A stretch of 64,000 nt of DNA from Akkermansiaceae bacterium (lineage in GTDB: Bacteria > Verrucomicrobiota > Verrucomicrobiia > Verrucomicrobiales > Akkermansiaceae), in NCBI GenBank assembly GCA_013041925.1, contig JABDRB010000011.1, positions 124,001 through 188,000 of the forward strand, in the 5' to 3' direction. The notes beneath the pieces were generated by a model. The model was not told the DNA's origin, did not search any database, and saw nothing but the letters and a program-made list of their open reading frames with translations. Shown one piece after another: positions 39,878-62,327 of the stretch; the first letter of the stretch is position 1; each line of letters opens with the position of its first letter. Position numbers and translations under genes: made by a program.

Positions 39878-40939
39878 TCAAGTAAGATATGCACCGTCGA
39901 TTCGTGAGAATATGACATCCGTTTGTTTATCCGGCAATACTTCCATTTTAGCTAGCCTATGATCTTGTTGATGCGACAAGTAGTATTCGACTTCATATTT
40001 GTTTTCTAACTTATACGAGAAAAATCCAGCATCCTTAAATTTGGTAAAGATTTCCAGCATCTCATTTTCATCAAGAGCGGAAGGAGTTATTTCGACAACT
40101 ACTTCTGCATCCTTAGGAAAGAGATGAAGTATCGGAAACATCCCCTTGAGAACTGAATATTCTGCACCTTCGGTATCTATTTTGACGAGTCTTGTGGTTC
40201 TTATTTTCAATTCTGAAAGAATACCAGAAAGGGGTCGTCCTTCAACAACTGTAGGCGCCGAATCAAAAATACCTTTGATTGATGTGGTAGCACCCTCATT
40301 GCTACGATCCGCGTGATACATGGCGATAGGATGTGAGTCATCCGTCGCGGCGCAGTTAACAACTTCAATGTTGTCATATCCATTCATCTGGACGTTTTCT
40401 TTTAGCCGATCATAAATGCAAGGGAAAGCCTCGATAGCGACCACTTTTCCATTTGGCATGCATCGTGCAGCAAGAAGGCTAAAGTAGCCAATGTTAGCGC
40501 CCACATCAATAAACGTGCGCTCACTTAACCCTTCAAGCCTTCCCTGTATAAACCTCGTTAGATTGGGCTCCCACATACCGAAGCAGTAAATATATCTCTG
40601 GATTAAATCATTAGTTCGACCTTTCATTATTGATCCAAACGACGTGCGTGTTGTGTAAGCAACTTTTAGAGATGAGATTACCCTCACGCAAAAGACCTTC
40701 CCAACTAACAATGGCGAATATCGAATATACGAGCGTGCGATCGCAGCTAAAATCGGAGCGACCGGGATTAAAATTACCCGTATTACTTTCTTTGTCCTTC
40801 TAAGCATTTTTATTGATGTGCATGTATTTATAATACGGCGTGCTTTTATATACACAAGAAATCCATCTAATGCGATGCCCTTATCGTTACAGTCTAGATC
40901 CACTAAATCAAAATTTCGATAAGGTGACATCAAGTGCAA
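39878..40939 (-). CDS. FkbM-family SAM-dependent methyltransferase
   Basis: Predicted O-methyltransferase, a family often acting on sugars of surface polysaccharides or natural products. The 353-residue product has a hydrophobic N-terminal segment (VIRVILIPVAPILAAIARS, about residues 50-68) and the FkbM domain: TFIDVGANIGYFSLLAA (SAM motif I), VVAIEAFPCIYDRLKENV, and RLVKIDTEGAEYSVLKGM, the family's most typical block. GC content, about 43 % in the part sampled, and codon use are lower than in flanking genes. It stands alone between the mrp operon and a GDSL gene, consistent with acquisition by transfer. The start could also be an internal ATG nearer the hydrophobic segment. Confidence 0.88.
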   Translation of the reverse strand: MHLMSPYRNFDLVDLDCNDKGIALDGFLVYIKARRIINTCTSIKMLRRTKKVIRVILIPVAPILAAIARSYIRYSPLLVGKVFCVRVISSLKVAYTTRTSFGSIMKGRTNDLIQRYIYCFGMWEPNLTRFIQGRLEGLSERTFIDVGANIGYFSLLAARCMPNGKVVAIEAFPCIYDRLKENVQMNGYDNIEVVNCAATDDSHPIAMYHADRSNEGATTSIKGIFDSAPTVVEGRPLSGILSELKIRTTRLVKIDTEGAEYSVLKGMFPILHLFPKDAEVVVEITPSALDENEMLEIFTKFKDAGFFSYKLENKYEVEYYLSHQQDHRLAKMEVLPDKQTDVIFSRIDGAYLT

Positions 40940-48333: not shown

Positions 48334-49476
48334 TTAGTTGGAGAACATCGCGAGGAAGTATCCTGCGGCGAGTGCGCTACCGATCACGCCGGCAACGTTG
48401 GGCCCCATAGCGTGCATAAGGAGGTAGTTCGACGGGTCGGCCTTCTGGCCTTCGTCTTGGGAAACCCTAGCGGCCATAGGCACGGCGGAAACTCCAGCCG
48501 ATCCGATCAACGGGTTGATCTTATTTTTGCTAAACACGTTGAGGAGCTTGGCCATCAACACACCTGCGGCAGTGGCGATGGCAAAAGCGGTAATACCCAG
48601 CCCGAGGATTTTAAGTGTCTCGGGGTTGAGGAAATTGTGAGAGTCGCCATAAAAACCACCCATCTTCAGGCCGACACATAGGCCGAGGAATATGGTGATC
48701 ACATTGATAATCTCATTTTGGGCCGCCTTGACGAGACGCTCCGTCACTTTGCTTTCACGAAGGACATTACCCAGGAAGAACATCGAGATCAGCGGGGCGG
48801 ATGAGGGAATGACAAGAAGGCAGAAAACCATCACCACGACAGCAAAGATCATCTTCTCCAGCTGACTGACCTTACGCAAGGTCTTCATCTTGATCTTGCG
48901 CTCTTTTTCCGTGGTCAGCGCACGCATGATCGGTGGCTGGATCATCGGCACCATCGCCATGTAACTGTAGGCCGCCACCGCAATGGCGCCAAGCAACTCA
49001 GGCGCCAAACTATTGGCGACATAGATCGACGTCGGACCATCAGCTCCACCAATGATCCCAATCGCCGCAGCTTGTTTCAGAGAGAAACCAAACATGGGCG
49101 CACAAACGAAGGTAAAGAAGATACCGAACTGCGCTGCAGCACCTAATAAAAGGGTCCGCGGGTTGGCGATAAGTGGACCGAAGTCCGTCAGTGCCCCGAC
49201 CCCCATAAAGATGAGAGGAGGGAATATTTCCAACTGGATGCCTTGGTTGAAATAATAGAACAACGTCCCATCTCTCAAGTGCCCTGTGGCATCGTAAAGA
49301 TCAATGGGAAGGTTTCCAATGAGGGCACCCATGGCGATGGGAACAAGTAGCAGTGGCTCAAACTTTTTAACGATCGCGAGGTAGAGTAGCGCAACGACGA
49401 CTACCCACATCACCATCATCTGCCACTGCAGGTTGGCAAATCCCGTGTCTAACAGGAGGCGTTTCAAATCTTCCAT
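48334..49476 (-). CDS. mmdB: Sodium-pumping decarboxylase, beta subunit (MmdB/OadB)
   Basis: Integral membrane subunit that decarboxylates carboxybiotin and exports Na+. The 380-residue product has about eleven hydrophobic segments with the family hallmarks [26 protein letters not shown] (ion-coordinating Asp), [13 protein letters not shown] and [19 protein letters not shown]. All matches to the oxaloacetate/methylmalonyl-CoA decarboxylase beta family. It lies 40 bases after the biotin carrier gene and 58 before the CoA-transferase. Confidence 0.97.
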
Positions 49477-49516
49477 GGAAACCTATTGTTATGAGTTAAT
49501 GAATTGATGTCTCAGC

Positions 49517-49894
49517 TTAACTGAATGAATAAAGTGGCGCCCCTTCATCAACAGCATCACCTGGCTTGACGTGCACAGCACCAATCGTGCCATCTGCTGG
49601 CGCATTGATCTCGGTAAACATCTTCATCGCCTCAAGCGTGACAATAAGATCGCCCGCTTTCACAGACGCTCCAGCTTCAACTTCTACAGCTTGAACAACG
49701 CCAGCCAGCGGGCTGGTGATGTCTCCTTCTGCCGCGACAGGGGCGGCGGCGGGGGCAGCGACGGGGGCTGCGGCAGCTGCGGCTGAAACGACGGGAGTTT
49801 CCGTCCTGACGGTTTGTGGGCTTGTGCCCTCATCGAGCATTTCGACTTGGACGTCATAAGTTTTGTCCTCTACGGTGATACGAAGTTTTTTCAT
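49517..49894 (-). CDS. mmdC: Biotin carrier protein of the decarboxylase (MmdC)
   Basis: Small biotinyl carrier that shuttles the carboxyl group between the transferase and the membrane pump. The 125-residue product has an N-terminal beta segment, an Ala/Pro-rich flexible linker (AAAAAPVAAPAAAPVAAEGD, about residues 38-57) and a C-terminal biotinyl domain with the attachment motif EAMKM (LEAMKMFTEINAPADG). In the operon it lies between the gamma and beta subunit genes. It is the only free biotin carrier in the window and so the likely carrier also for the 5S-like subunit at 30.4-31.9 kb. Confidence 0.96.
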   Translation of the reverse strand: MKKLRITVEDKTYDVQVEMLDEGTSPQTVRTETPVVSAAAAAAPVAAPAAAPVAAEGDITSPLAGVVQAVEVEAGASVKAGDLIVTLEAMKMFTEINAPADGTIGAVHVKPGDAVDEGAPLYSFS

Positions 49895-49918
49895 AGTGTT
49901 CGGTGGTGATGGATGATG

Positions 49919-50281
49919 TTATCGGATATTGTGAGATGATTGAATTTGTTGGCGTCCGGCCTGACTCCACACGGGGTTGTGAGGTTGGACTGAGACAATG
50001 CGTCGATGTGTCCCGGTGACGGCTGTGACGGCCGCAGCGATGACAACGAGGGTTTCTGGGGCCACTGCGTCATCGGCCACCGTCTTCCTGCTAGCGACGA
50101 CGGGTGAAGCCTCTGGGGTGGCTGGCATTAACTTTTTGATTACCGCACCGGTGATGACACAGAGTGCCCAGAGGACGGCCAAGGTGACGACCACCACGGC
50201 AAACCCCATCACGTGAGGGAGAGCGTCGGAGACAGTCGAATTTTCCGCCGCAGCGGCGATGATAATAGGAAACGGGATCAT
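49919..50281 (-). CDS. mmdD: Sodium-pumping decarboxylase, gamma subunit (OadG/MmdD-like)
   Basis: Small membrane-anchoring subunit that holds the soluble carboxyltransferase on the pump. The 120-residue product has one transmembrane helix (HVMGFAVVVVTLAVLWALCVI), a charged linker and a C-terminal soluble tail (VVIAAAVTAVTGTHRRIVSV), typical of OadG-like proteins. It starts 20 bases after mmdA. Sequence conservation in this family is low, so the call rests on topology plus context. Confidence 0.85.
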   Translation of the reverse strand: MIPFPIIIAAAAENSTVSDALPHVMGFAVVVVTLAVLWALCVITGAVIKKLMPATPEASPVVASRKTVADDAVAPETLVVIAAAVTAVTGTHRRIVSVQPHNPVWSQAGRQQIQSSHNIR

Positions 50282-50301
50282 GAGAATAGGGTGTTCGTCC
50301 T

Positions 50302-51855
50302 TTAGAGTGGGATGTTTCCGTGTTTCTTCGCGGGACGGCTTTCCCGTTTACCCAGCATGCCCCGGAAGGCCATGGCGAGCGTGGAACGAGAAGAACTCGG
50401 GTCGATCACATCGGTGATCATGCCATTGCTGGCGGCCTGATACGGTGAGGCAAATTTCTCACTGTAGGCCTCGCGAAGTTCCTCTTCGAGTTTTTCAGGG
50501 TTCTCAGCCTCGGCAAGTTCACGACGGTAAAGGACTTTCATCGCTCCCTGAGCCCCCATGACCGCGATCTCAGCGGTGGGCCAAGCAAAGACGAAGTCGG
50601 CTCCGAGGTCGCTAGGACACATGGCGAGGTAGGCACCGCCGTAGGCCTTACGGCAGATCAGGGTGATTTTTGGCACCGTTCCTGATGCCCATGCGAAGAG
50701 CATTTTGGCACCGTGACGGATGATTCCGCCGCGTTCTTGGGCGAGTCCGGGCATAAAGCCGGGAACATCCACCAAGGAAAGAATCGGGATCGAGTAAATA
50801 TTACAAACTCGGATGAAGCGCGCGGCTTTGTCGGAGGAATCGATATCGATGCAGCCAGCTTTCACGGTTGGCTGGTTGGCCACGATGCCGATGACGAGCC
50901 CTTCGATGCGGGCAAATCCGGTCAGCATGTTGGGCGCAAAGTCAGGCATGATTTCAAACCAGCTGCCCGGGTCGGTGACACGGGCGATGACCTGCTGCAT
51001 ATCCAGCGGGCTCCTTGAGTCGGCTGGGATGATCTCATTCATGCCAAGGTCCTCAGTGATGGCGATTTCATCAGAAAGCTGGTGAGGCGGCTCGGATGCG
51101 TTATTGGATGGCAGGTAGGAGAGCAGACGCTTACTGAGCTCAAGGGCGTGATGATCGTCTTCTGCAATCAAGTGGATGTTTCCGCTGACCTGAGCGTGGG
51201 CATCAGCACTGGCAAACTGATCCAGTGACGCGGTTTGTCCCGTCGCCGCCTTAATCACATCGGGGCCACAGATGAACATGTTCGCATTTTTCCGCGTCAT
51301 GATGAGGAAGTCGGTCAGCGCTGGTGAGTAGGCCGCACCACCAGCACAGGGGCCTGAGATGATGGAAATCTGGGGCACCACACCGGAGAGCAGCACGTTG
51401 CGGAAGAACACCTGGCCGTAACCAGAAAGCGCTTCGATCCCCTCTTGAATACGGGCACCGCCAGAGTCGTTGATTCCAACCACGGGCATCCCCGCCTTGA
51501 CGGCAAAGTCGAGCAGGTCACAGATTTTTTTGGCGTGGATCCGTCCTACAGCTCCGCCGCCGACGGTGAAATCCTGAGCGAATGCGGCTACGGTTCGGCC
51601 TTCCACCGTTCCGGTGGCGCAGACGACGCCGTCACCTGGCATCTTACGTTTTTCCAAGCCGAAGTTGGTGCACGAGTGGTGGGCGTGCATGCCAAATTCA
51701 ATGTAGGATCCTTGGTCAAAAAAGGCATCCAGACGCTCACGAGCGGTCAGCTGGCCTTTTTTGTGGCGTTTTTCGATGCGCTCCTGACCACCGCCTAACA
51801 AGGCCTCCTCTCTGCGGTCGTTGAGTTTTTCTAGTAGTATTGGGTCAATAGCCAT
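50302..51855 (-). CDS. mmdA: Methylmalonyl-CoA carboxyltransferase, decarboxylase alpha subunit
   Basis: Soluble acyl-CoA carboxyltransferase that moves CO2 from methylmalonyl-CoA to biotin; homologous to the transcarboxylase 12S subunit. The 517-residue product has two crotonase-like halves with the oxyanion-hole glycines in SGPCAGGAAYSPAL and CRKAYGGAYLAM, NDSGGARIQEGIEAL, VDVPGFMPGLAQE and the family C-terminus KRESRPAKKHGNIPL. It follows the epimerase gene by 39 bases. Context with biotin carrier, gamma and beta subunits indicates the Na+-pumping decarboxylase; a propionyl-CoA carboxylase role is less likely because no biotin carboxylase is present. Confidence 0.97.
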   Translation of the reverse strand: MAIDPILLEKLNDRREEALLGGGQERIEKRHKKGQLTARERLDAFFDQGSYIEFGMHAHHSCTNFGLEKRKMPGDGVVCATGTVEGRTVAAFAQDFTVGGGAVGRIHAKKICDLLDFAVKAGMPVVGINDSGGARIQEGIEALSGYGQVFFRNVLLSGVVPQISIISGPCAGGAAYSPALTDFLIMTRKNANMFICGPDVIKAATGQTASLDQFASADAHAQVSGNIHLIAEDDHHALELSKRLLSYLPSNNASEPPHQLSDEIAITEDLGMNEIIPADSRSPLDMQQVIARVTDPGSWFEIMPDFAPNMLTGFARIEGLVIGIVANQPTVKAGCIDIDSSDKAARFIRVCNIYSIPILSLVDVPGFMPGLAQERGGIIRHGAKMLFAWASGTVPKITLICRKAYGGAYLAMCPSDLGADFVFAWPTAEIAVMGAQGAMKVLYRRELAEAENPEKLEEELREAYSEKFASPYQAASNGMITDVIDPSSSRSTLAMAFRGMLGKRESRPAKKHGNIPL

Positions 51856-51894
51856 AATGATAATTGGTGATAAATGCGCTGAATAAAAGGGGGG

Positions 51895-52299
51895 TTACTT
51901 GGCGTCTTGGCAAAACTCCGTGAGGACGCCAAACGTCGATTTAGGGTGCAGGAAAGCAACAAGCTTGTCCCCTGCCCCTGCAAAAGGAACCTCATGGATC
52001 AAACGTGCCCCCTTCTCCTTGGCTTGGCCAAGCTGGCCGGTGATATCGTCCGTGGCAAACGCGATATGGTGAATCCCTTCGCCATTTTTCTCGATGAACT
52101 TCGCGATCGGACTCTCGTCTGAGGTCGGCTCCAGTAACTCGATGTGCACGTCACCCGCAGCAAAGAAGGCGGTGCGCACCTTTTGAGATTCTACTTCTTC
52201 ACGTCCTTCACATTCCAAACCAAGAACATCCTCATAGTAGGGGATGACGGCTTCCAGCGATTTTACGGCGACTCCCAAGTGGTCTATTTTTGTAATCAT
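51895..52299 (-). CDS. mce: Methylmalonyl-CoA epimerase
   Basis: Interconverts (S)- and (R)-methylmalonyl-CoA, linking the mutase to the decarboxylase or carboxylase. The 134-residue glyoxalase-fold product begins MITKIDHLGVAVKSLEAVIPY and has the metal ligands in DHLGVAV (His), VHIELLEPTSDESPI (Glu) and GIHHIAFATDD (His), plus the typical LIHEVPFAGAGDKLVAFLHPKST end. It is the first gene of the minus-strand propionate operon. Confidence 0.97.
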   Translation of the reverse strand: MITKIDHLGVAVKSLEAVIPYYEDVLGLECEGREEVESQKVRTAFFAAGDVHIELLEPTSDESPIAKFIEKNGEGIHHIAFATDDITGQLGQAKEKGARLIHEVPFAGAGDKLVAFLHPKSTFGVLTEFCQDAK

Positions 52300-52505
52300 T
52301 TCAGATAGGTAGTGGTGTGCTACGGTTGGAACATATACTGATCAATGCACGCTTTGCTCTGCGCCGCCTCTTTCATGCTCCGCATATTTTGCTTAGCAGG
52401 CAAAACGTCATTAAATACGACATCTGGGACTCTATGGGAAGAAGATTCTTCGACATTTTTCATTCAGGGCAAGTTAGTAGAATCGCGGGACCCTTTTCGT
52501 CATTT

Positions 52506-53429
52506 CTACCGATTAATCGGCAGGCGATGGATCATGGTCTGACTGGCCTCCGAGAGCTGGCTGATATCATAGACGAAGCTCTTGGATCGGGTCTTAAAAT
52601 AGACCTTCGTTTTTGAGCGTCCTGAGATCGAAGCTTCGATCTTGTGGCCCTCTGCGTTGGTCAACGTGCGGTTTGTGGGGAAGGCGCGCGGTTCGGGTTT
52701 TCCCGCAGGGCTCCCGACCGCTTCGAGAATCACCTTGGTTTCGCTTTCGGGATGCCCGCTTTGATAGGGCAGCGACGCAGGGGATTTTTCGAAAAGAGTG
52801 GCATAAAACACACAGGCTGCGAGATAGGCACCTTGGCTCGATGGGTGACTCCCGTCTCCCTTATAAAGGGCATTGCCAAGTTCGGGGTTGGCTTTTCGAA
52901 CTTTCGCCCAGGTATCCCCGACGGGCACCAGCACGGCATCACAACGTTTCGCCACCTTGCGGTAATTCGTGCTGAGCACTTTCTGCATTTTTTGATAATC
53001 AGGAAAGAGGTGTCGGTTATGCTTATCGCCGTCCCTACGCCCCCAAGTTTGGTAAAACACGGTTTTTGCGCCGGCGGCATCGATCATCTTGTCGAGATTG
53101 ACGGCTGCACGTTCAAACTTATCGGGAAAAATGGCAGGGGTTTGGCTTTGATCCTGCAGCACCACGTAATCCCAGTTTCCTTTCTTGATTTTCTCGGTGG
53201 TTGATTTTGTTTGCTGATGAAAATCAAGGGTTTTACCGCCTGGGCAGATGAACTCCATCTGGGTGGAATCCCCTTCCGGTGAGCTTTTGATCAAATTCTT
53301 CACGGTGTTCCGAATCTGAGCGGTGTAGCTGTTTCCGATAAACAGAATTCTCGTGGTCTCCTCAGCGTATGCCTGCCATGGGACAAGACACGCGAGGAAA
53401 GATAAAATGAGGGGTTTGTGCATCATCAT
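52506..53429 (-). CDS. Exported SGNH-hydrolase-like protein with C-terminal SHD1-like domain
   Basis: The 307-residue product has a signal peptide (PLILSFLACLVPWQAYA), an SGNH-type hydrolase domain (ILFIGNSYTAQIRNTV with a Ser at block I; DYVVLQDQSQTPAI; DGSHPSSQGAYLAACVFYA as the Asp-His block) and a C-terminal 55-residue segment (FPTNRTLTNAEGHKIEASI to DISQLSEASQTMIHRL) that matches the SLA1-homology SHD1 domain, frequent on exported Verrucomicrobial and Planctomycete proteins. The typical SGNH block III Asn is unclear. Substrate unknown; possibly an ester or acetyl group on polysaccharide. Between the epimerase start and this stop (52300-52505) I see no gene. Confidence 0.82.
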   Translation of the reverse strand: MMMHKPLILSFLACLVPWQAYAEETTRILFIGNSYTAQIRNTVKNLIKSSPEGDSTQMEFICPGGKTLDFHQQTKSTTEKIKKGNWDYVVLQDQSQTPAIFPDKFERAAVNLDKMIDAAGAKTVFYQTWGRRDGDKHNRHLFPDYQKMQKVLSTNYRKVAKRCDAVLVPVGDTWAKVRKANPELGNALYKGDGSHPSSQGAYLAACVFYATLFEKSPASLPYQSGHPESETKVILEAVGSPAGKPEPRAFPTNRTLTNAEGHKIEASISGRSKTKVYFKTRSKSFVYDISQLSEASQTMIHRLPINR

Positions 53430-53742
53430 CGTGAGTGGGTGGATTTTTTATGCAGGGGAGGGAGGGAAAGAGATAGCGGGACGCCATAACGCGGAGGAAC
53501 GGCATCGGAACCATGGCGTGGATGGATCCCGCCAGCAAGGGATAAGATTGAAAAGTAAGCCATCATCCCGCCGCGGCCCACATGCACGATCCGTTGACTC
53601 GCCTGCGGCGTTGCCTGACCCCAAGAGATTGCACGTGACATCCATGGCGAGTGACGTATTTCTGATCGGGCTCGATTTCTGCATCTTTTTCGATGAATGA
53701 GGTCAAAGACCTCGACCTAGTAAACCAAGGGCAATCGCAAAC
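53430..53742. other. Gene-free stretch upstream of modA
   Basis: Holds the upstream regions of the SGNH gene (minus) and modABC (plus). Open frames in 53353-53700 on both strands have no recognisable domain. GAGGTC-AAA-GACCTC (53699-53713) is a perfect inverted repeat 30 bases before modA. I could not recognise a molybdenum-cofactor riboswitch. Confidence 0.5.
53699..53713 (+). promoter_or_regulatory. Inverted repeat before modA
   Basis: GAGGTC and GACCTC separated by three A residues, perfect 6-bp arms, just upstream of the modA start. It could be an operator or a hairpin; it does not resemble the E. coli ModE site. Confidence 0.3.
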
Positions 53743-54585
53743 ATGAAACCACCGAAACCCAAGTTGTTCTTGTTTGTTGGCTGTTGGCTGTTGGTGACCG
53801 CGATCGGCATGTGGCTACTGCCAGAGAGGAAGCCGACGGGTGAGCGTATCCACATCGCGGTGGCGAGCAATTTCACTGGCGCCATGGAGCCGCTGGCCCA
53901 GCGGTTTGAGGCAATGACCGGGTATGAGGTGGTGATCAGCTCGGGTTCCACGGGGTTGTTGTATGCGCAGATTCGGAATGGTGCACCCTTTGATGCTCTG
54001 TTTGCCGCCGACAAGGATCGCCCAGCACGGCTTGTAGCGGATGGATACGCGCTGCCGGGAAGCCGATTCACGTATGCGGTGGGTCGGCTTGCTTTATGGA
54101 GTCCACGGGTGGGAGTGGTGGAATCCGACGGAAACCTATGCGATTCCAAGAGGTTACGGCACATGGCCATCGCCAACCCCCAACTCGCCCCGTATGGCAA
54201 GGCCGCCCGTGCTGTGTTGCAAGCAAGGGGGCTATGGAAGACCCTCGAGAAAAAGAGGGTCATGGGACAAAACATCGCGCAGACATACCAGTTTGTCGAA
54301 AGCGGTCATGCGGATGTGGGTTTTGTCGCGTATTCACAGTTGCGGCGCGCAGGGCATACGGCGGACGGCGCCGACGGATCGTATTGGCTGGTGCCAGAAT
54401 CGATGCATTCTCCCATTGCACAACAGGCGGTTGTATTGAATGATGGCGCAGGAGTCTCGGCATGGATGGATTTTATCATGAGCGATGAAGCCCAAGAAAT
54501 GATACGTAGCTTCGGCTACGGAACCCAGCTTGATACGGGATCAGCACCCAACATCGAATCAGGTGCGGACATCAAAAAGAGATGA
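53743..54585 (+). CDS. modA: Molybdate ABC transporter, substrate-binding protein
   Basis: Periplasmic receptor for molybdate or tungstate. The 280-residue product has an N-terminal signal or anchor (LFLFVGCWLLVTAIGMWLL), then HIAVASNFTGAMEPLAQRFE, SSGSTGLLYAQIRNGAPFDALFAADKDRP (the oxyanion-binding SGSTG), IANPQLAPYGKAARAVL and VGFVAYSQL, the ModA family pattern. Ligand-binding Ser residues (SNF, SSGST) are present. First gene of modABC; its stop overlaps modB by four bases. Confidence 0.93.
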   Translation: MKPPKPKLFLFVGCWLLVTAIGMWLLPERKPTGERIHIAVASNFTGAMEPLAQRFEAMTGYEVVISSGSTGLLYAQIRNGAPFDALFAADKDRPARLVADGYALPGSRFTYAVGRLALWSPRVGVVESDGNLCDSKRLRHMAIANPQLAPYGKAARAVLQARGLWKTLEKKRVMGQNIAQTYQFVESGHADVGFVAYSQLRRAGHTADGADGSYWLVPESMHSPIAQQAVVLNDGAGVSAWMDFIMSDEAQEMIRSFGYGTQLDTGSAPNIESGADIKKR

Positions 54586-56370: not shown

Positions 56371-57294
56371 TCAGGTTGTTTTAAGCTGATAGCGCTGCAG
56401 CCCAATCAGAGCGACAACCACCAGCGCTCCACCGAGCCAGATCCCGGCACCGGGCGACTCACTCGATACCAGCAGTGACGACTCGACCACCGCACACATC
56501 GGCACAAGAAAGCGGTAACCAGCCAGCAAGTTCACTGGGAACAATCGCGTCAGATGATTCCATAATCCAAACCCAAGCGCAGAAACAAACGCGAGGTAAG
56601 CCGTGAGTAAAATCACCTTGGGAGGAAATAGACACGCAAAATCAGGCCATGCCATCACACCCGTAAGAAGCAACATCACCCCACCCAAAAACAAACCATA
56701 GCCAGTGGCAGCACGCGCTCCCATCGTGACTAGGATTTTTTGCAAGCTAATCAACCCGAGTGCTCCGCTCAACGTGCTCAGACAAAAAAGAACCCCACCG
56801 AGCACGGGCTGACCGCTGCCAGCACCGGGACGGTAAACCGCCACCAGCACACCGGCGGCCCCCACCCCCATCAAGGCCCATTGCCAACGATTCGGCCACG
56901 GCGTTTTCAAGATCAAGGGAGCCAACACCAACCACCAAAAACTCCCCGACGATACCAACAAGCCACCTAGCACCGCACTCGCCGTCGCCAAGGCCGTATA
57001 AAACAGCGCGTATTGCACATAGGTCTGCGCACAGGCAAACACCAACACCCTCTTCCATGAGGTTTTTTTCATCTCAACCCACGGGTGCTTCGCCATCAGT
57101 AATAGCACCGCACCACCTAACACAAACCTCACCCCCGCCAACAAAAATCGGTTCGACATGTCCGGCTCCACCCCGTGCCTCGCCCACTCGGCATAGATCG
57201 CCTTAATCGCTGGAAAGGCACTCCCCCAAAGCAACGCACACAACAGCACGGCCACGGGAAGCAATCGAGTGGAAATTTTCACAGCTCGCGTCAA
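56371..57294 (-). CDS. EamA/DMT-superfamily transporter
   Basis: Ten-helix inner-membrane exporter of the drug/metabolite superfamily; the substrate is unknown. The 307-residue product contains two EamA repeats (about 15-150 and 165-300), with LLWGSAFPAIKAIYAEW, FVLGGAVLLL, FYTALATASAVLGGLL and a second half ending in GAGIWLGGALVVVALIGL. Its start overlaps the stop of the spermidine-synthase-like gene by four bases, so the two are translationally coupled. Confidence 0.88.
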   Translation of the reverse strand: MTRAVKISTRLLPVAVLLCALLWGSAFPAIKAIYAEWARHGVEPDMSNRFLLAGVRFVLGGAVLLLMAKHPWVEMKKTSWKRVLVFACAQTYVQYALFYTALATASAVLGGLLVSSGSFWWLVLAPLILKTPWPNRWQWALMGVGAAGVLVAVYRPGAGSGQPVLGGVLFCLSTLSGALGLISLQKILVTMGARAATGYGLFLGGVMLLLTGVMAWPDFACLFPPKVILLTAYLAFVSALGFGLWNHLTRLFPVNLLAGYRFLVPMCAVVESSLLVSSESPGAGIWLGGALVVVALIGLQRYQLKTT

Positions 57295-58058
57295 GCATGC
57301 GTTTTCGTCACATAAACCGTGCTCTCAGAATCACGCCCGAGGATCGGGTTCTGAAACGGGACAACATGCGTTTCTGATGATGCAAATACCTCGTTGAGCG
57401 CTTTCATAAATTCCGCTTCAGGCGGGTCATCCGACCACAGCGCAAAGACCCCACCTGGGTGAAGCTGTTCCGTCATTTTGCGAAGCCCGTCCGCCTTGTA
57501 AAAATCAGCATGTCGCTCGTTGAGCAGATGATCCGGCGAGTGGTCAATATCGAGCAAAATAGCGTGAAATTTCCGATCAGGTGATTTCGAGTCAAATCCC
57601 AGTCCGGCCCCTTCCGCCGGCCCCGCCATCACCGCACGTTTAAAAAAATCGCCATGCTCAAATCGGCAGCGTGGGTCTGCCGTCAGGCCCGCCCCGAGAG
57701 GAACCATCCCCTTACGATGCCAGTCAATCACCGGTTGCAGGTAATCCACGACAATCAATTCGCCCACTGAAGCATGATCCAGTGCTACCTTCGCCGTGTA
57801 ACCCAGCCCGAGCCCGCCGACCACCACATCGAGACGCGATTCGTCAGGGAACGATGCCTCCGCCGCCGCTAACCCAAGCGTCGATAACGCCTCTTCCACC
57901 ACCGTAAACAAACTGGACATCAAAAACTCCTGACCCAGCATGATTTCGTAAACCTCAAGATCGTCGAGCGTCATCATCGTCCGCCGACGCAAGATCACTT
58001 CTCCCAGATCCGTTTGCTGGTAATCAATTTCTTCAAATCGTGGTCGCATAGGTTGCAT
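57291..58058 (-). CDS. Spermidine-synthase-like SAM-fold protein
   Basis: Rossmann-fold protein of the spermidine synthase (SpeE-like) superfamily. The 255-residue product begins MQPMRPRFEEIDYQQTDLGEVILRRR, with a beta-rich N-terminus, a glycine-rich loop DVVVGGLGLGYTAKVALD (motif I), IVVDYLQPVIDW, RFEHGDFF, ILLDIDHSPDHLL and FALWSDDPPEAEF. True spermidine synthases have D-x-D[GS] and other residues that I cannot confirm, so aminopropyl or methyl transfer is only inferred. Starts at 58058 or 58049. It is coupled to a DMT exporter, hinting that a product may be exported. Confidence 0.75.
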   Translation of the reverse strand: MQPMRPRFEEIDYQQTDLGEVILRRRTMMTLDDLEVYEIMLGQEFLMSSLFTVVEEALSTLGLAAAEASFPDESRLDVVVGGLGLGYTAKVALDHASVGELIVVDYLQPVIDWHRKGMVPLGAGLTADPRCRFEHGDFFKRAVMAGPAEGAGLGFDSKSPDRKFHAILLDIDHSPDHLLNERHADFYKADGLRKMTEQLHPGGVFALWSDDPPEAEFMKALNEVFASSETHVVPFQNPILGRDSESTVYVTKTHA

Positions 58059-58182
58059 GCCAAGCTTTGTAACCACGCATCCCAAAGATGGATAGCGAAT
58101 AATTAAACTGCACAAGGAACATATCCCCCATTACATCTAACCTCGCCATATTCCATGCCCAAGGAATCCGACCAACTCACCT

Positions 58183-58244
58183 TCTATCTTCTTCCACATC
58201 TTTTTGACCTGTTTATTATTCTTCGTTTATAAAAGGCCTGTCCC
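58183..58244. repeat. 62-bp direct repeat, copy A (left of GH43)
   Basis: Matches copy B (59654-59715) at 58 of 62 positions, in the same orientation. It contains the TTTATAAAAGGCCTGTCCC core and ends 16 bases before the GH43 stop codon. It marks one edge of an AT-rich 1.5-kb island. Confidence 0.92.
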
Positions 58245-58259
58245 TTTATTACATACTAT

Positions 58260-59336
58260 TCATTTTTTGGGGAGCACGCCACCATACGCGTCAATGGTCA
58301 TTATTTTCCCTTCAGCATCATGTTTAAGTTCAGTCATTTTAATTGAGCGTAAGTTGGTGTTACCATTTGAAAGTATACTGTCGTGATAAAATAAATACCA
58401 TTTCCCTTCAAACTCACAAATTGAATGGTGATTGGTCCAGCCCAAAACAGGTTTTAAAACAATACCCTGATAGGTAAATGGTCCATATGGATTATCGCCT
58501 GTTGCATAACAAATTAGGTGCGTGCCACCTGTTGAATATGAAAAGTAATAGGTGCCTTTATACTTATGAACCCATGCCGCTTCAAAAAAACGTTTAGCAC
58601 CATCGCTACCTTTTAATAATTCTCCATTTTTATCAATTATCTGTACTTCCTTAGCAGGTCCCGCAAACTCAAGCATATTGTCGCTCATTTTGGCTATACG
58701 CGGTAGTAAAGCAGGTTTATTCTCATCAGGAAATCTGTAGTGCACTCCAAATTTATTTCCACGATAATGTTGTAATTGACCACCATCAATTCCTCCAAAG
58801 TACATATAGTGAGATCCATCATCATCTTTAAATACACTCGGATCAATTGAGTAACTTCCCTTAATAGCATCTGGTTGCGCTTTAAATGGTCCTGTTGGTG
58901 AATCACCTACGGCCACACCGATTCTAAATAAGTCTAAATGATCTTTAGCTGGGAAGTATAAATAATACTTGCCCTCTTTTTCAGCTGCATCGGGAGCCCA
59001 CATTTGCTTGGTGGCCCATGGCACATCATCAACATGTAAAACTGGACCATGATCGGTAACTTCAGCCCCAACTTTATCAATTGAAAAAACATGGTAATCA
59101 ACCATACGAAAAGCCCCACCGGGACTATCGTATACTTTGCCTTCATTGACATCGTGTGATGGGTATATATAAATTTTACCATCGAACACATGAGCCGAAG
59201 GATCAGCTGTGTGTATCTCTGTTACTAAAGGTTCTGAGATCTGATGCTTTTTGAATTTTTCTATTTTGCCATCTTGAGCATTTATGCCCGATGCAAAAAT
59301 GAATGACCCTGCTAAAATTGATATGCTTTTGTTCAT
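58260..59336 (-). CDS. GH43-family glycoside hydrolase, AT-rich import
   Basis: Inverting five-bladed-propeller hydrolase, a family that mainly holds arabinofuranosidases and xylosidases. The 358-residue product has a signal peptide (ISILAGSFIFASGINAQ) and the three carboxylates: base Asp45 in TADPSAHVFDGKIYIY, modulator Asp in GSYSIDPSVFKDDDG (about 167) and acid Glu in RFFEAAWVHKYKGTYYFSYS (about 243). Two 60-base samples of the gene are only about 32 and 37 % G+C, far below its neighbours, and its codon use resembles Bacteroidota. It lies between two 62-bp direct repeats, so it was probably acquired by transfer. Subfamily and exact substrate cannot be told. Confidence 0.92.
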   Translation of the reverse strand: MNKSISILAGSFIFASGINAQDGKIEKFKKHQISEPLVTEIHTADPSAHVFDGKIYIYPSHDVNEGKVYDSPGGAFRMVDYHVFSIDKVGAEVTDHGPVLHVDDVPWATKQMWAPDAAEKEGKYYLYFPAKDHLDLFRIGVAVGDSPTGPFKAQPDAIKGSYSIDPSVFKDDDGSHYMYFGGIDGGQLQHYRGNKFGVHYRFPDENKPALLPRIAKMSDNMLEFAGPAKEVQIIDKNGELLKGSDGAKRFFEAAWVHKYKGTYYFSYSTGGTHLICYATGDNPYGPFTYQGIVLKPVLGWTNHHSICEFEGKWYLFYHDSILSNGNTNLRSIKMTELKHDAEGKIMTIDAYGGVLPKK

Positions 59337-59877
59337 GATTATTCTATATTGCTGCTAGGAATTTGCTTTTTGAGTGAGGTGGCACGAGAGCATCGTGCAA
59401 GGGAGAGAGAAAGGGGGCAGAGGGGTGGCGGGTAAAACTGAAACGTAGAAAGTTGAAATTCTGAAATGGATCAGGCCCCGGAGAGACACGGAATGAGGCT
59501 GAGTTGAGCAAAAAAAACTCAACACGAATATATTCCCCTTACCCGCCGTGCCAAGGAGATTCTTCGCAGCGGGTATTTTTGAATGCTGTTTGCAAATGGT
59601 GTTATGTCGGATCAAGAACCAGTGTGCAAAAAAGGGGTCAGCATAGAAATCCCTCTATGTTCTTCCACACCTGTTTGACCTGTTTATTATTTTTCGTTTA
59701 TAAAAGGCCTGTCCCGAATGGCACTTGATTAAGATCTATCATCGGCGAGGTACGCGAAGTAGTGCTGCTCGGTGCCGTTGAGTGCCCAGCCTGTGGGACG
59801 GAGGAAATCGTCCACAGAACGATCAAGTGTGTGAGTGTATGATCAGGTAGTCACCGAAGGTCTGGCCGGGGAGTCCA
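59337..59877. other. Gene-free stretch upstream of GH43 and downstream of GH95
   Basis: Contains copy B of the 62-bp repeat, a GTTGAG / CTCAAC hairpin around 59502-59525, and a CATAGA-AATCCC-TCTATG hairpin (59642-59659) directly abutting copy B with GGGGTC before it. No transposase, RNA gene or plausible coding sequence is visible; open frames here carry no domain. It includes the GH43 promoter region. Confidence 0.6.
59654..59715. repeat. 62-bp direct repeat, copy B (right of GH43)
   Basis: 58 of 62 positions identical to copy A (58183-58244), same orientation, 1471 bases apart. It is preceded by a short hairpin and AAAAAAGGGGTCAGC, a combination reminiscent of the ends of REP-associated (IS200-like) elements; no transposase is present. 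Confidence 0.92.
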
Positions 59878-62169
59878 TCACCAAGAAATGGTGTAGGTGG
59901 TTCCTGCCTTGGTGGGAAATGGGAAGGTGCCGTCTTTGGTGCGGTCGATAGAAAACGCATTACCCCCAGCCTTCGGAGTGACTAAAAGGGTATCTTTCTC
60001 GAGCAACGGCATACGCAGCGTGATCGGGTTGCCGTGCAGGGACTCGATGGTGGCGGTGGTGATAGTGCGCTTGTCCCAGCTGGCGCCGACCTCAAATCCT
60101 CCGCGGGCACGCAAACCGCTGAATGATCCACTCCGCCATTTGCGTTTGATCGGGATGGCGGGAAGGAGTGAGACTTCACCCGCGTGGCTTTGAACAAGCA
60201 TTTCGCAGACACCCGCGGTGATACCTGAGTTGCCATCCATTTGAAATGGCGGGTGCGAGGCGAGCAAGTTGGGCAACGCGTTCCATGTCAACTGGCCACG
60301 GATCATGTCACTGGCTTGCGAGGATAACCCGAGCCGCGACCACAATGCGCAGCGCCACCCCCACGTCCATGAGCGACGTGAGTCGCCTGCATTACCACGC
60401 GCGGCAAGTGAGAGGATCGCTGCTTGGGCAAGCTTCGGATCCTCGTAGAGAGAAATTTGTTCGCTCGGGTAGACGGCGTAGAGGTGTGATGTGTGGCGGT
60501 GTTGCGATTTTTCGAGAACGGGACGCTCTTCTAACCACTCCTTAATTTGCCCCCACGACCCGAGTTCTGGACCCATCAATTTTTTACGAGCCATGCGGAC
60601 TTGATCGACGAATGCATTGTCGATACCAAGGACATGGGCGGCTTTCAGCGTGTTGGTAAAAAGGTCCCAAACAATTTGGTGATCGTGGGCGACACCATCT
60701 TCGCGCGGGCCGTGCTCAGGTGACCAACCATCGTGAACGATCAGCTTGCCCTCATTTTCGATCAGGTGGTGAAGCCAAAATTTTGAAACGTCCTCAAAGA
60801 TCGGCCAGGCACGTTCGCGCAGGAATTTTTTGTCCCCAGTGAACGCGTATTGATCCCAGTAGTGGCGGGATAACCATGCGGATGAGGGTAAGTTCCACTC
60901 CCAGCCATTACCGCCGAAGATGTTCACCGAGGTGCGCATCGTCCAACCCGGGGTGCCCTCACCAAAGGCCTTTGTGGTGGCTGCGCGGCTGCTCGGGACT
61001 GATGCATCAACCCAATTGAGCAACGGCATGGCGCATTCCGCGAGGTTAGCGGGGCCCGTCGGCCAATAGTTCATCTGGATGTTGATGTTGGTGTGGTAAT
61101 CGCAATACCACGCTGGGTGATTCATGTCATTCCACAGCCCCTGAAGGTTGGCCGGAAGGCGATGGCGCGATGACGCAATGAGAAGGTATCGACCAAACTG
61201 AAATAGCAGCATTTCGAGATGCGGGTCTTCCTTTCCCTGTCGGTAGCGCTCAAGGCGCTGGTGCATGGCGACGCCATCAGGTGCTTTTCCTAAATTGACC
61301 ACGACCCGATTCATCAGGGCTGAAAAATCGCTTACGTGGGATTGACGCAAGGCATCGTACCCTTTTGCCATAGCCGCTTTCGCGTGACCGTCGATGGTTT
61401 GATTCGGGTCGATTCCGCTGCGAAATTTTTTCTTCGGGTTCATCGCGTAATCCGTGGCTGCATTGAGCACGAGCAGCACGCTATCGCCCGTCACCTGGAG
61501 CTGATCTCCCTCCACCTTGACTTCACCTCCACAGCTCATGGATGTGAGCGCGGCGGCGTAGCGCAAATCGTTGTCGAGGCGTCCAGAGAAACGGATTTGA
61601 TGGGTAGCGCCTTGCGTCGTTTCCCCATGTGAACCTGCGAGAGTGATGGTGGCATCAATCCTGCCAGGCTTATCAGCTTTGATCAGGATCAAAATGGATT
61701 CATCAGGATGACTTGCAAACACTTCGCGTGTGAAAGCAACCCCATTGCTTGTCCAACTTGTGGTGTGAATGCCTGTGGCGAGATCAAGTGTGCGACGGTA
61801 ATTCTCGTAGGTGCTGGCGCCATTCATCTTGATACGCAGATCCCCAAAATTTTGGTAGGAGCCAAAGCCTCCAGGCTCTTTGACACTGTATTTCCCTGAC
61901 TCATTGGCACCGCCTGTCCACAGACTGATGTCATTGAATTGAATGCGTTCACGGAGCGGATCCCCGAAGACCATCGCACCGATACGGCCATTGCCGATGG
62001 GTGACGCTTCACGCTCCCAATCCGAATGCGGAAAGGTCACAGAGGGGTCCATGTACTGGGTCGAGCGCTCGAGCTTGCGGTATTCGGGCGCTTGATCGTA
62101 ACTGAGAAGCAATGAGGGGTCCGCTGCCATTGCAGTGAGTGGCAGCCATGCGATCATGAGAAATTTCAT
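59878..62169 (-). CDS. Secreted alpha-L-fucosidase, GH95
   Basis: Inverting fucosidase, typically alpha-1,2-specific. The 763-residue product has a signal peptide (FLMIAWLPLTAMAA), an N-terminal beta-sandwich (ASPIGNGRIGAMVFGDPLRERIQFND region) and the (alpha/alpha)6 catalytic domain: LQGLWNDMNHPAWYCDYHTN followed by INIQMNYW (catalytic Asn region), HDGWSPEHGPRED (acid Glu) and PFQMDGNSGITAG (Asp). The pattern is typical of GH95 such as bifidobacterial AfcA. Start 62169 gives a clean signal; the frame is open to 62277 but that part is poor. It is next to the repeat-flanked GH43 gene, and another fucosidase (GH29) lies at 12-13.4 kb. Confidence 0.94.
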   Translation of the reverse strand: MKFLMIAWLPLTAMAADPSLLLSYDQAPEYRKLERSTQYMDPSVTFPHSDWEREASPIGNGRIGAMVFGDPLRERIQFNDISLWTGGANESGKYSVKEPGGFGSYQNFGDLRIKMNGASTYENYRRTLDLATGIHTTSWTSNGVAFTREVFASHPDESILILIKADKPGRIDATITLAGSHGETTQGATHQIRFSGRLDNDLRYAAALTSMSCGGEVKVEGDQLQVTGDSVLLVLNAATDYAMNPKKKFRSGIDPNQTIDGHAKAAMAKGYDALRQSHVSDFSALMNRVVVNLGKAPDGVAMHQRLERYRQGKEDPHLEMLLFQFGRYLLIASSRHRLPANLQGLWNDMNHPAWYCDYHTNINIQMNYWPTGPANLAECAMPLLNWVDASVPSSRAATTKAFGEGTPGWTMRTSVNIFGGNGWEWNLPSSAWLSRHYWDQYAFTGDKKFLRERAWPIFEDVSKFWLHHLIENEGKLIVHDGWSPEHGPREDGVAHDHQIVWDLFTNTLKAAHVLGIDNAFVDQVRMARKKLMGPELGSWGQIKEWLEERPVLEKSQHRHTSHLYAVYPSEQISLYEDPKLAQAAILSLAARGNAGDSRRSWTWGWRCALWSRLGLSSQASDMIRGQLTWNALPNLLASHPPFQMDGNSGITAGVCEMLVQSHAGEVSLLPAIPIKRKWRSGSFSGLRARGGFEVGASWDKRTITTATIESLHGNPITLRMPLLEKDTLLVTPKAGGNAFSIDRTKDGTFPFPTKAGTTYTISW

Positions 62170-62327
62170 AAAAAAAACATGCAACGATGATGGCAACAAT
62201 TCAAGTGAAACCGAGCAGGGTAGTGGCCGCGCGGGGGCATCCCTCTGCGGAGCAGGCTGCATAGAAGCCATTGGCACGACACGCTTCTATTCGGCCACAA
62301 AAAAAAGCTAATTTGGTTGTCGTCGCA

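Follow-up and report, generated by a model that had tools for sequence, protein, structure and literature searches.

A foreign GH43 gene directly behind an IS91-family remnant and between RAYT-gene relics in an Akkermansiaceae genome

The window analysed here is a 64,000-nucleotide stretch of an Akkermansiaceae chromosome (GenBank assembly GCA_013041925.1, contig JABDRB010000011.1, positions 124,001 to 188,000), and the features surrounding its intact GH43 glycoside hydrolase gene are compiled in Table 1. The assembly of the source genome (G000; 3,280,152 bases, 3.28 Mb) comprises 33 contigs and is 98 % complete and 0.5 % contaminated. The gene to the left of the locus served as its anchor and was found near full-length in 10 of the 13 same-genus genomes and in partial form in 2 more. 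In the search for an empty site, none of the 18 stretches fetched from relatives carried this gene together with the GH95 gene of the right side; the relative with the closest EamA neighbour (G010) breaks off within the left neighbour gene.

Table 1. Features of the GH43 locus (positions in the window)
Feature	Position	Strand	Basis or remark
Left neighbour gene, no Pfam match, left locus anchor	57291..58115	-	genus comparison
Left 65-nt repeat: REP-like GGGACAGGCCTTTTATAAA joined to RAYT (Y1) C-terminal coding tail	58180..58244	-	stops before RAYT right end
Foreign AT-rich block: GH43 ORF plus its 15-bp margins	58245..59351	-	composition, DE65 edge
GH43 glycoside hydrolase, 358 aa, intact	58260..59336	-	ORF, Pfam, structure relatives
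DE65, dispersed element of ~65 bp, 3' end toward GH43	59352..59416	-	36 distinct copies
Hairpin directly 3' of the IS91-family transposase stop codon	59540..59575	-	z -2.66
3' remnant of an IS91-family (Y2) transposase gene: seven codons and stop (TLVLDPT*), rest missing	59602..59627	-	blastn, translation
RAYT-element right end, TTTCTATGCTGACCCC type	59628..59650	-	only at right repeat
Right 65-nt repeat, fusion as in left copy	59651..59715	-	base-by-base comparison
REP-like half AAGTGCCATTCGGGACAGGCCTTTTATAAA	59697..59726	-	also C29:49007-49043 (95 % over 37 nt)
GH95 gene, right side, ordinary composition	59878..62277	-	Pfam, composition

The GH43 protein matched Pfam family PF04616 with 92.4 bits (cut-off 32.2). 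Its closest solved relatives, 5glk (GH43), 6xn0 (xylosidase) and 4mlg (beta-xylosidase), align with it over nearly the full length (E 3.6e-142 to 7.3e-125); the predicted product, which is similar in sequence to GH43 beta-xylosidases, is apparently a xylan-type sugar-cutting enzyme. As the initial annotation had pointed out, the gene is AT-rich compared with its flanks: its G+C content is 38.8 % (54 % for the window) and its GC3 is 28.7 %, against 57-65 % in the four neighbouring genes that were measured. The source genome was sampled over 850,899 bases, and none of the 428 ORFs of 250 aa or longer found there has a lower GC3 (mean 0.608, sd 0.08). A second AT-rich gene, encoding an FkbM-type methyltransferase, lies at positions 39881-40930 of the window and ranks fourth lowest of the 428 (GC3 0.371). 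The edge of the foreign block was placed by a dispersed element, DE65, whose end is 15 bp away from the GH43 start codon; the block begins at the first base past this element. It had been proposed that an AT-rich island occupies the space between two repeats; the AT-rich block is real but runs from about 58245 to 59351, and other material makes up 59352-59650.

Homologues of the GH43 gene were sought in 58 genomes, namely the source genome, 13 of the same genus and the remainder of the same family or order. Matches at E 1e-3 or below were obtained in 11 of them, the source genome included, and the best non-self match reached E 4.8e-16, compared with 7.3e-254 for the gene itself. The same-genus match, among the 13 genomes searched, was confined to G012 and was weak (E 6.6e-5). 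A one-genome-per-species collection, which may omit records very near the source genome, yielded 285 relatives; the best 80 of these are 57-67 % identical to the window protein, and their titles name 55 Bacteroidota, 23 Pseudomonadota and 2 Balneolota. In a quick tree with 88 rows, the window GH43 fell inside the Bacteroidota/Pseudomonadota/Balneolota group, in a 29-row set with a support of 87. Seven rows from four relatives of the source genome, representing part of the GH43 matches found in the 58 genomes, sit past a branch with 99 % SH-aLRT support. Clustering with homologues of its own lineage, named in the initial annotation as the counter-evidence to look for, was not seen in this tree. 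The end branch of the window GH43 measures 0.87, no starred set of the tree contains the gene, and its top identity is 64 % over 330 columns; the highest identity to any of the best 80 relatives is 67 %, a distance that counts against a pinned donor. By composition and tree position, the GH43 gene is foreign. The initial annotation had asked for a phylogeny to check for a Bacteroidota origin: the enzyme groups among Bacteroidota and gammaproteobacterial sequences, and the donor was apparently a Bacteroidota-like bacterium, as judged from these comparisons.

The gene is enclosed by two direct repeats. Initially described as 62-bp copies in the same orientation around one GH43 gene, they do agree at 58/62 positions over 58183-58244, and a base-by-base count extended their true length to 65 nt (60/65 identical, 92 %). 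A repeat search returned this pair as the longest repeat within the surrounding 6 kb. When the whole assembly was searched by blastn, the second copy was recovered at E 2.7e-21. Further copies had been suggested as a genome-wide target; among the 8 matches listed for the whole assembly there were two full copies of the fused repeat, 1.47 kb apart, and no third full-length one, and the ends of contigs C18 and C30 gave a weaker match (81 % over 42 nt). Besides the source genome, none of 385 order-level genomes contained the fused repeat (E 1e-6, at most two candidates scored per genome), nor did any of 383 class-level genomes, a sample that overlaps the first.

The alignments of each repeat show a REP-like end that runs into the C-terminal coding tail of a RAYT transposase gene (IS200-like, Y1). 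On the strand opposite to the window plus strand, the frame at C18 and C30 reads ...LKNNRQVKRMWKKM..FYA, with TKNNKQVKKMWKKIE in the left and TKNNKQVKQVWKNIE in the right window repeat. The RAYT tail was matched in 7 of 98 genomes, the source genome included, and it ends full-length Y1 transposases in the same-genus genomes G008 (360 aa) and G013 (348 aa). These two proteins scored 36.6 and 39.8 bits with Y1_Tnp (PF01797, cut-off 23), and 43.8 and 45.4 bits with the NCBIfam model for REP-associated tyrosine transposases (NF047646), below its cut-off of 80. The Y1/HUH domain is present in the full-length relatives and missing from the window repeats, which retain the tail only. The REP-like end GGGACAGGCCTTTTATAAA stands ahead of the tail in both window copies and recurs at C29:49025 and C29:54311. 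As both repeats bear the same fusion of REP and tail, they stem from one ancestor. Comparison of their five differences with aligned RAYT genes indicated three changes in the right copy and one in the left, with one undecided. The left repeat lacks both the RAYT right end and the REP half carried by the right repeat.

A close form of GGGACAGGCCTTTTATAAA and the REP-like half AAGTGCCATTCGGGACAGGCCTTTTATAAA each belong to a palindromic pair in the relative G125. This pair (L179, 1475-1535) is REPIN-like and has the form GGACAGGCCCGAATGGCACGGG..CCCGTGCCATTCGGGACAGGCC. An 18-nt REP core searched with up to 2 mismatches was found in 28 of the 58 genomes, and the reversed pattern gave 2 matches in all. 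Internally deleted RAYT copies with inverted ends of the AAAGGGGTCAGGCATAGAAATG type, a miniature derivative, were observed in G008 (L190, ~1370-1620, and L195, ~210-440), so that such relics exist elsewhere in the genus; the REP half fused in the window is of another type than the 5' end of these mini-elements. In the source genome itself, contigs C18 (1-140), C30 (both ends) and C19 (end) stop inside copies of a RAYT gene, which suggests that there are several near-identical copies that the assembly did not separate. According to two papers (PMC8266576, PMC3116915), RAYTs are IS200-like, and TnpA-REP proteins are HUH enzymes with REP sequences as their substrate. The locus resembles this family in the Y1 RAYT-like tail shared by both repeats, in the right end of the right copy, and in the REP-like halves and the palindromic REP pair found here. 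Unlike RAYT/TnpA-REP elements, the window holds a dead fragment only.

The DNA between the right repeat and the GH43 gene has a different history. We compared 58060-60000 with the 58 genomes by blastn, scoring at most five candidates per genome. The segment 59352-59627 proved not to be foreign: contig C234 of G001 matches 59355-59627 at 81 %, and parts of the segment match many same-genus sites. The G001 counterpart is the end of a 506-aa open frame with Y2_Tnp (79.8 bits) and Zn_Tnp_IS91 (61.3 bits) domains, both above cut-off, which identifies the short coding remnant in the window as the 3' end of an IS91-family transposase gene. The hairpin behind its stop codon is possibly part of oriIS. 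In two G010 copies and in G007, the conserved IS91 3' flank ends at about window 59525-59533; the IS91 terminus may therefore sit there, and DE65 would then perhaps be unrelated to it. The initial annotation had taken the mobilising machinery to be elsewhere or extinct. In agreement with the first of these, RAYT gene pieces lie at contig ends of the source genome, and the open IS91-family transposase frame was found in a relative.

DE65 was detected as 36 distinct copies in 2,293,503 bases examined at E 1e-4, with 0 in a reversed control. Its edges are sharp across the copy set, and a few copies share up to ~190 bp of additional sequence on the 5' side (C20:138-393 with C29, 85 %). At E 1e-3, a first sample (20 stretches and the window, 464 kb) contained six copies; five were clustered within 8 kb of C22. 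The 850,899-base sample of the source genome, partly picked for already known copies, contained 18, distributed over C20 (5 in 8 kb), C22 (5), C4 (3), C29 (2), C2 (2) and the window. The window copy has private differences, its best matches in the compared arrays spanning 31-41 nt at 88-97 %. IS91 3' ends followed by DE65 ~30-250 bp downstream were seen in the window, in G001, G007, G012 and C29, and weakly in C2. The cases in G012, C29 and C2 are not independent pairs, since they were found via DE65 or in stretches chosen for it. Among the four other places reached via the transposase 3' end, DE65 was close by in two (G001 and G007) and not in the two of G010. A transposase piece was found beside 1 of the 18 copies of the source-genome sample, in which the seven codons of the window are too short for detection. 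The link between IS91 and DE65 is thus thin, and DE65 may be independent of IS91.

Several candidate identities for DE65 were rejected. As an integron attC site it fails on folding: the folds of the C20 copy (L271; z -0.08 on one strand, 0.45 on the other) and of the C4 copy (L272; likewise 0.45) are no more stable than those of shuffled sequences, and a 6-bp hairpin (z -2.78 and -1.91) occurs in the window DE65 alone. No Rfam family matched at gathering score in L264, L244, L199 or L233, and an exact 20-mer was absent from viral_contigs, which disposed of a phage origin. DE65 often reads as ATG followed by 16 codons (MKAPPTTSPKKQIPSS); differences between copies fall mostly at first and second codon positions (by eye), and the DNA is still conserved where the frame is broken (window, L235), so that a coding function was rejected too. 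DE65 may be a promoter only. Narrow searches of the literature on IS91 in Verrucomicrobi, ISCR/oriIS and RAYT/REPIN brought no report of DE65 to our notice, and equally narrow ones found nothing linking Verrucomicrobi, dispersed repeat and sulfatase, or Akkermansiaceae, transposase and glycoside hydrolase.

We consider the following account the most likely one, at a probability of about one half: the GH43 gene was acquired horizontally, without a promoter, and captured at the downstream end of an IS91-type remnant in an ISCR-like layout. We favour it because ISCR elements have this layout: a lone gene that brings no upstream DNA of its own and follows directly on the 3' end of a Y2 transposase gene. 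The piece supplied by a Bacteroidota-like donor would have been short and promoterless, made of the ORF and ~15 bp on each side, and would have lodged at the downstream end of the transposase remnant and the adjoining DE65, so that host DNA upstream (IS91 remnant/DE65) would supply it with an upstream region. The two RAYT-element relics that flank the whole are transposase-gene fragments of one ancestor and not transposon ends. We infer the rolling-circle (IS91/ISCR-like) capture step and the order of events. An account of ISCR1 (PMC6218425) describes the oriIS side of ISCR elements as variable and often bearing passenger genes and outward promoters. If the 3' side of the transposase gene is taken as the oriIS side, the GH43 gene has the position of such a passenger.

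The resemblance to IS91/ISCR elements lies in the 3' end of a Y2 and zinc-binding transposase gene upstream and in the same orientation, in the cargo downstream of it, and in the lack of upstream DNA of the gene's own past 15 bp. Unlike these elements, the one in the window is a relic whose transposition is putative, and DE65 stands between remnant and gene, yet also occurs alone in arrays. The absence of a complete IS91 element at the site, where seven codons, the hairpin and the 3' flank remain, counts against capture by IS91. The 65-nt relic may have come to lie on both sides by duplication at the site, or by a single crossover of a resident copy with one on incoming DNA. Nothing observed points to RAYT as having moved the GH43 gene, and we think that the RAYT relics are secondary or the product of a recombination that closed the left side.

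A serious competitor to IS91-type capture, which we nevertheless judge appreciably less probable, is that the gene arrived by homologous recombination or transformation and that the IS91 fragment, DE65 and the RAYT relics gathered in the intergenic space before or later. RAYT-derived pieces are indeed present in genus genomes, the thin link between IS91 ends and DE65 fits such a gathering, and a similar set (REP half, RAYT tail, IS91 3' end, two DE65) surrounds a sulfatase gene at C29:49.0-54.4 kb. Random accumulation would not be expected, however, to make the foreign block start at the first base after DE65, nor to leave the two full copies of the fused repeat listed for the genome 1.47 kb apart.

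It is unlikely that GH43 was the cargo of a composite unit (RAYT or IS200-like) bounded by the two 65-nt copies, as the initial annotation had supposed. The copies have the same orientation, derive from a mobile-element gene and, as two full copies among the matches listed, both lie around one foreign gene. A composite transposon would carry a complete copy of the element at either end, whereas the left copy here is cut short, without the RAYT right end and the REP half of the right copy. The outer flanks do not match either: 20 bases beyond each outer repeat end, compared by eye, revealed no target-site duplication. We know of no target duplication produced by IS200/605 or IS91, so its absence does not exclude these families. 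Y1 elements usually do not act as composites. Moreover, the IS91 3' end and DE65 stand between the right repeat and the cargo, inside the supposed unit, and both are present in genus genomes that lack this GH43. The guess that a mobile element was involved was right in kind, and the repeats are relics of a transposase gene rather than the limits of a mobile unit.

A misjoin at short repeats that placed GH43 here by assembly error is very improbable. Repeated sequence does occur at both borders of the foreign block, and some of the 33 contigs end in RAYT copies; against this, the foreign DNA adjoins at the left border a relic that is known in full form from this locus alone, the DE65 at the other border has its private differences, and the assembly is 98 % complete and 0.5 % contaminated. 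Nothing was found to suggest that GH43 was inherited vertically in the lineage from early on and drifted to low G+C, and with a weak match in 1 of 13 same-genus genomes and both tree and composition contradicting it, we dismiss this possibility.

The case shows a single carbohydrate-active gene crossing from an apparently Bacteroidota-like source to a distant chromosome, directly behind mobile-element DNA of the host. ISCR-type capture is known mainly from antibiotic-resistance genes. If genes for polysaccharide degradation in other bacteria had the same ISCR layout, this would account for the assembly of such gene sets, and the DE65 arrays make this idea testable. We regard these arrays as the most unusual lead of the analysis and its best candidate for something new. 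DE65 could conceivably mark an unrecognised gene-cassette system in the genus and its kin, although we hold this to be improbable: a 65-bp non-palindromic end, perhaps recognised in trans by a rolling-circle transposase of IS91 type, would capture single promoterless genes (sulfatases, esterases, glycoside hydrolases, GH43) serially into arrays, in an integron-like manner with other chemistry. Similarly to integron cassettes and CALINs, a short repeated element lies between same-strand genes in C20, C22 and C4. Unlike attC, DE65 from C20 and C4 shows no folding beyond that of shuffles, and unlike integron cassettes it faces the start of the next gene.

The clusters are located in C20 (L271), C22:233-242 kb (L264), C4 (L272) and C29:40-60 kb (L274). 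In C20, C22 and C4 the copies lie between genes that are mostly, though not all, on the same strand. Within C29, positions 49000-54400 (L018, L274) contain a sulfatase gene amid a REP half, an IS91 3' end, two DE65 copies and a decayed RAYT tail. The genes behind DE65 encode sulfatases, a sialate-esterase-like protein, a 3-keto-disaccharide hydrolase, an oxidoreductase and a GH16 protein; several products of the arrays are secreted or carbohydrate-active enzymes, and 2 of 10 scanned proteins had no Pfam match. Considering the 27 copies flanked by 700 bases or more on either side, an ORF of at least 150 aa starts between -50 and +120 of the 3' end in 14, and 1 has a divergent ORF on the 5' side. 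A gene start fell within the same reach at 690 of 2000 random positions; this figure is raised by internal start codons, and the excess at DE65 is thus modest. Besides GH43, seven genes adjacent to DE65 were tested for composition; GC3 was low in two (ranks 0.007 and 0.07) and ordinary in the other five.
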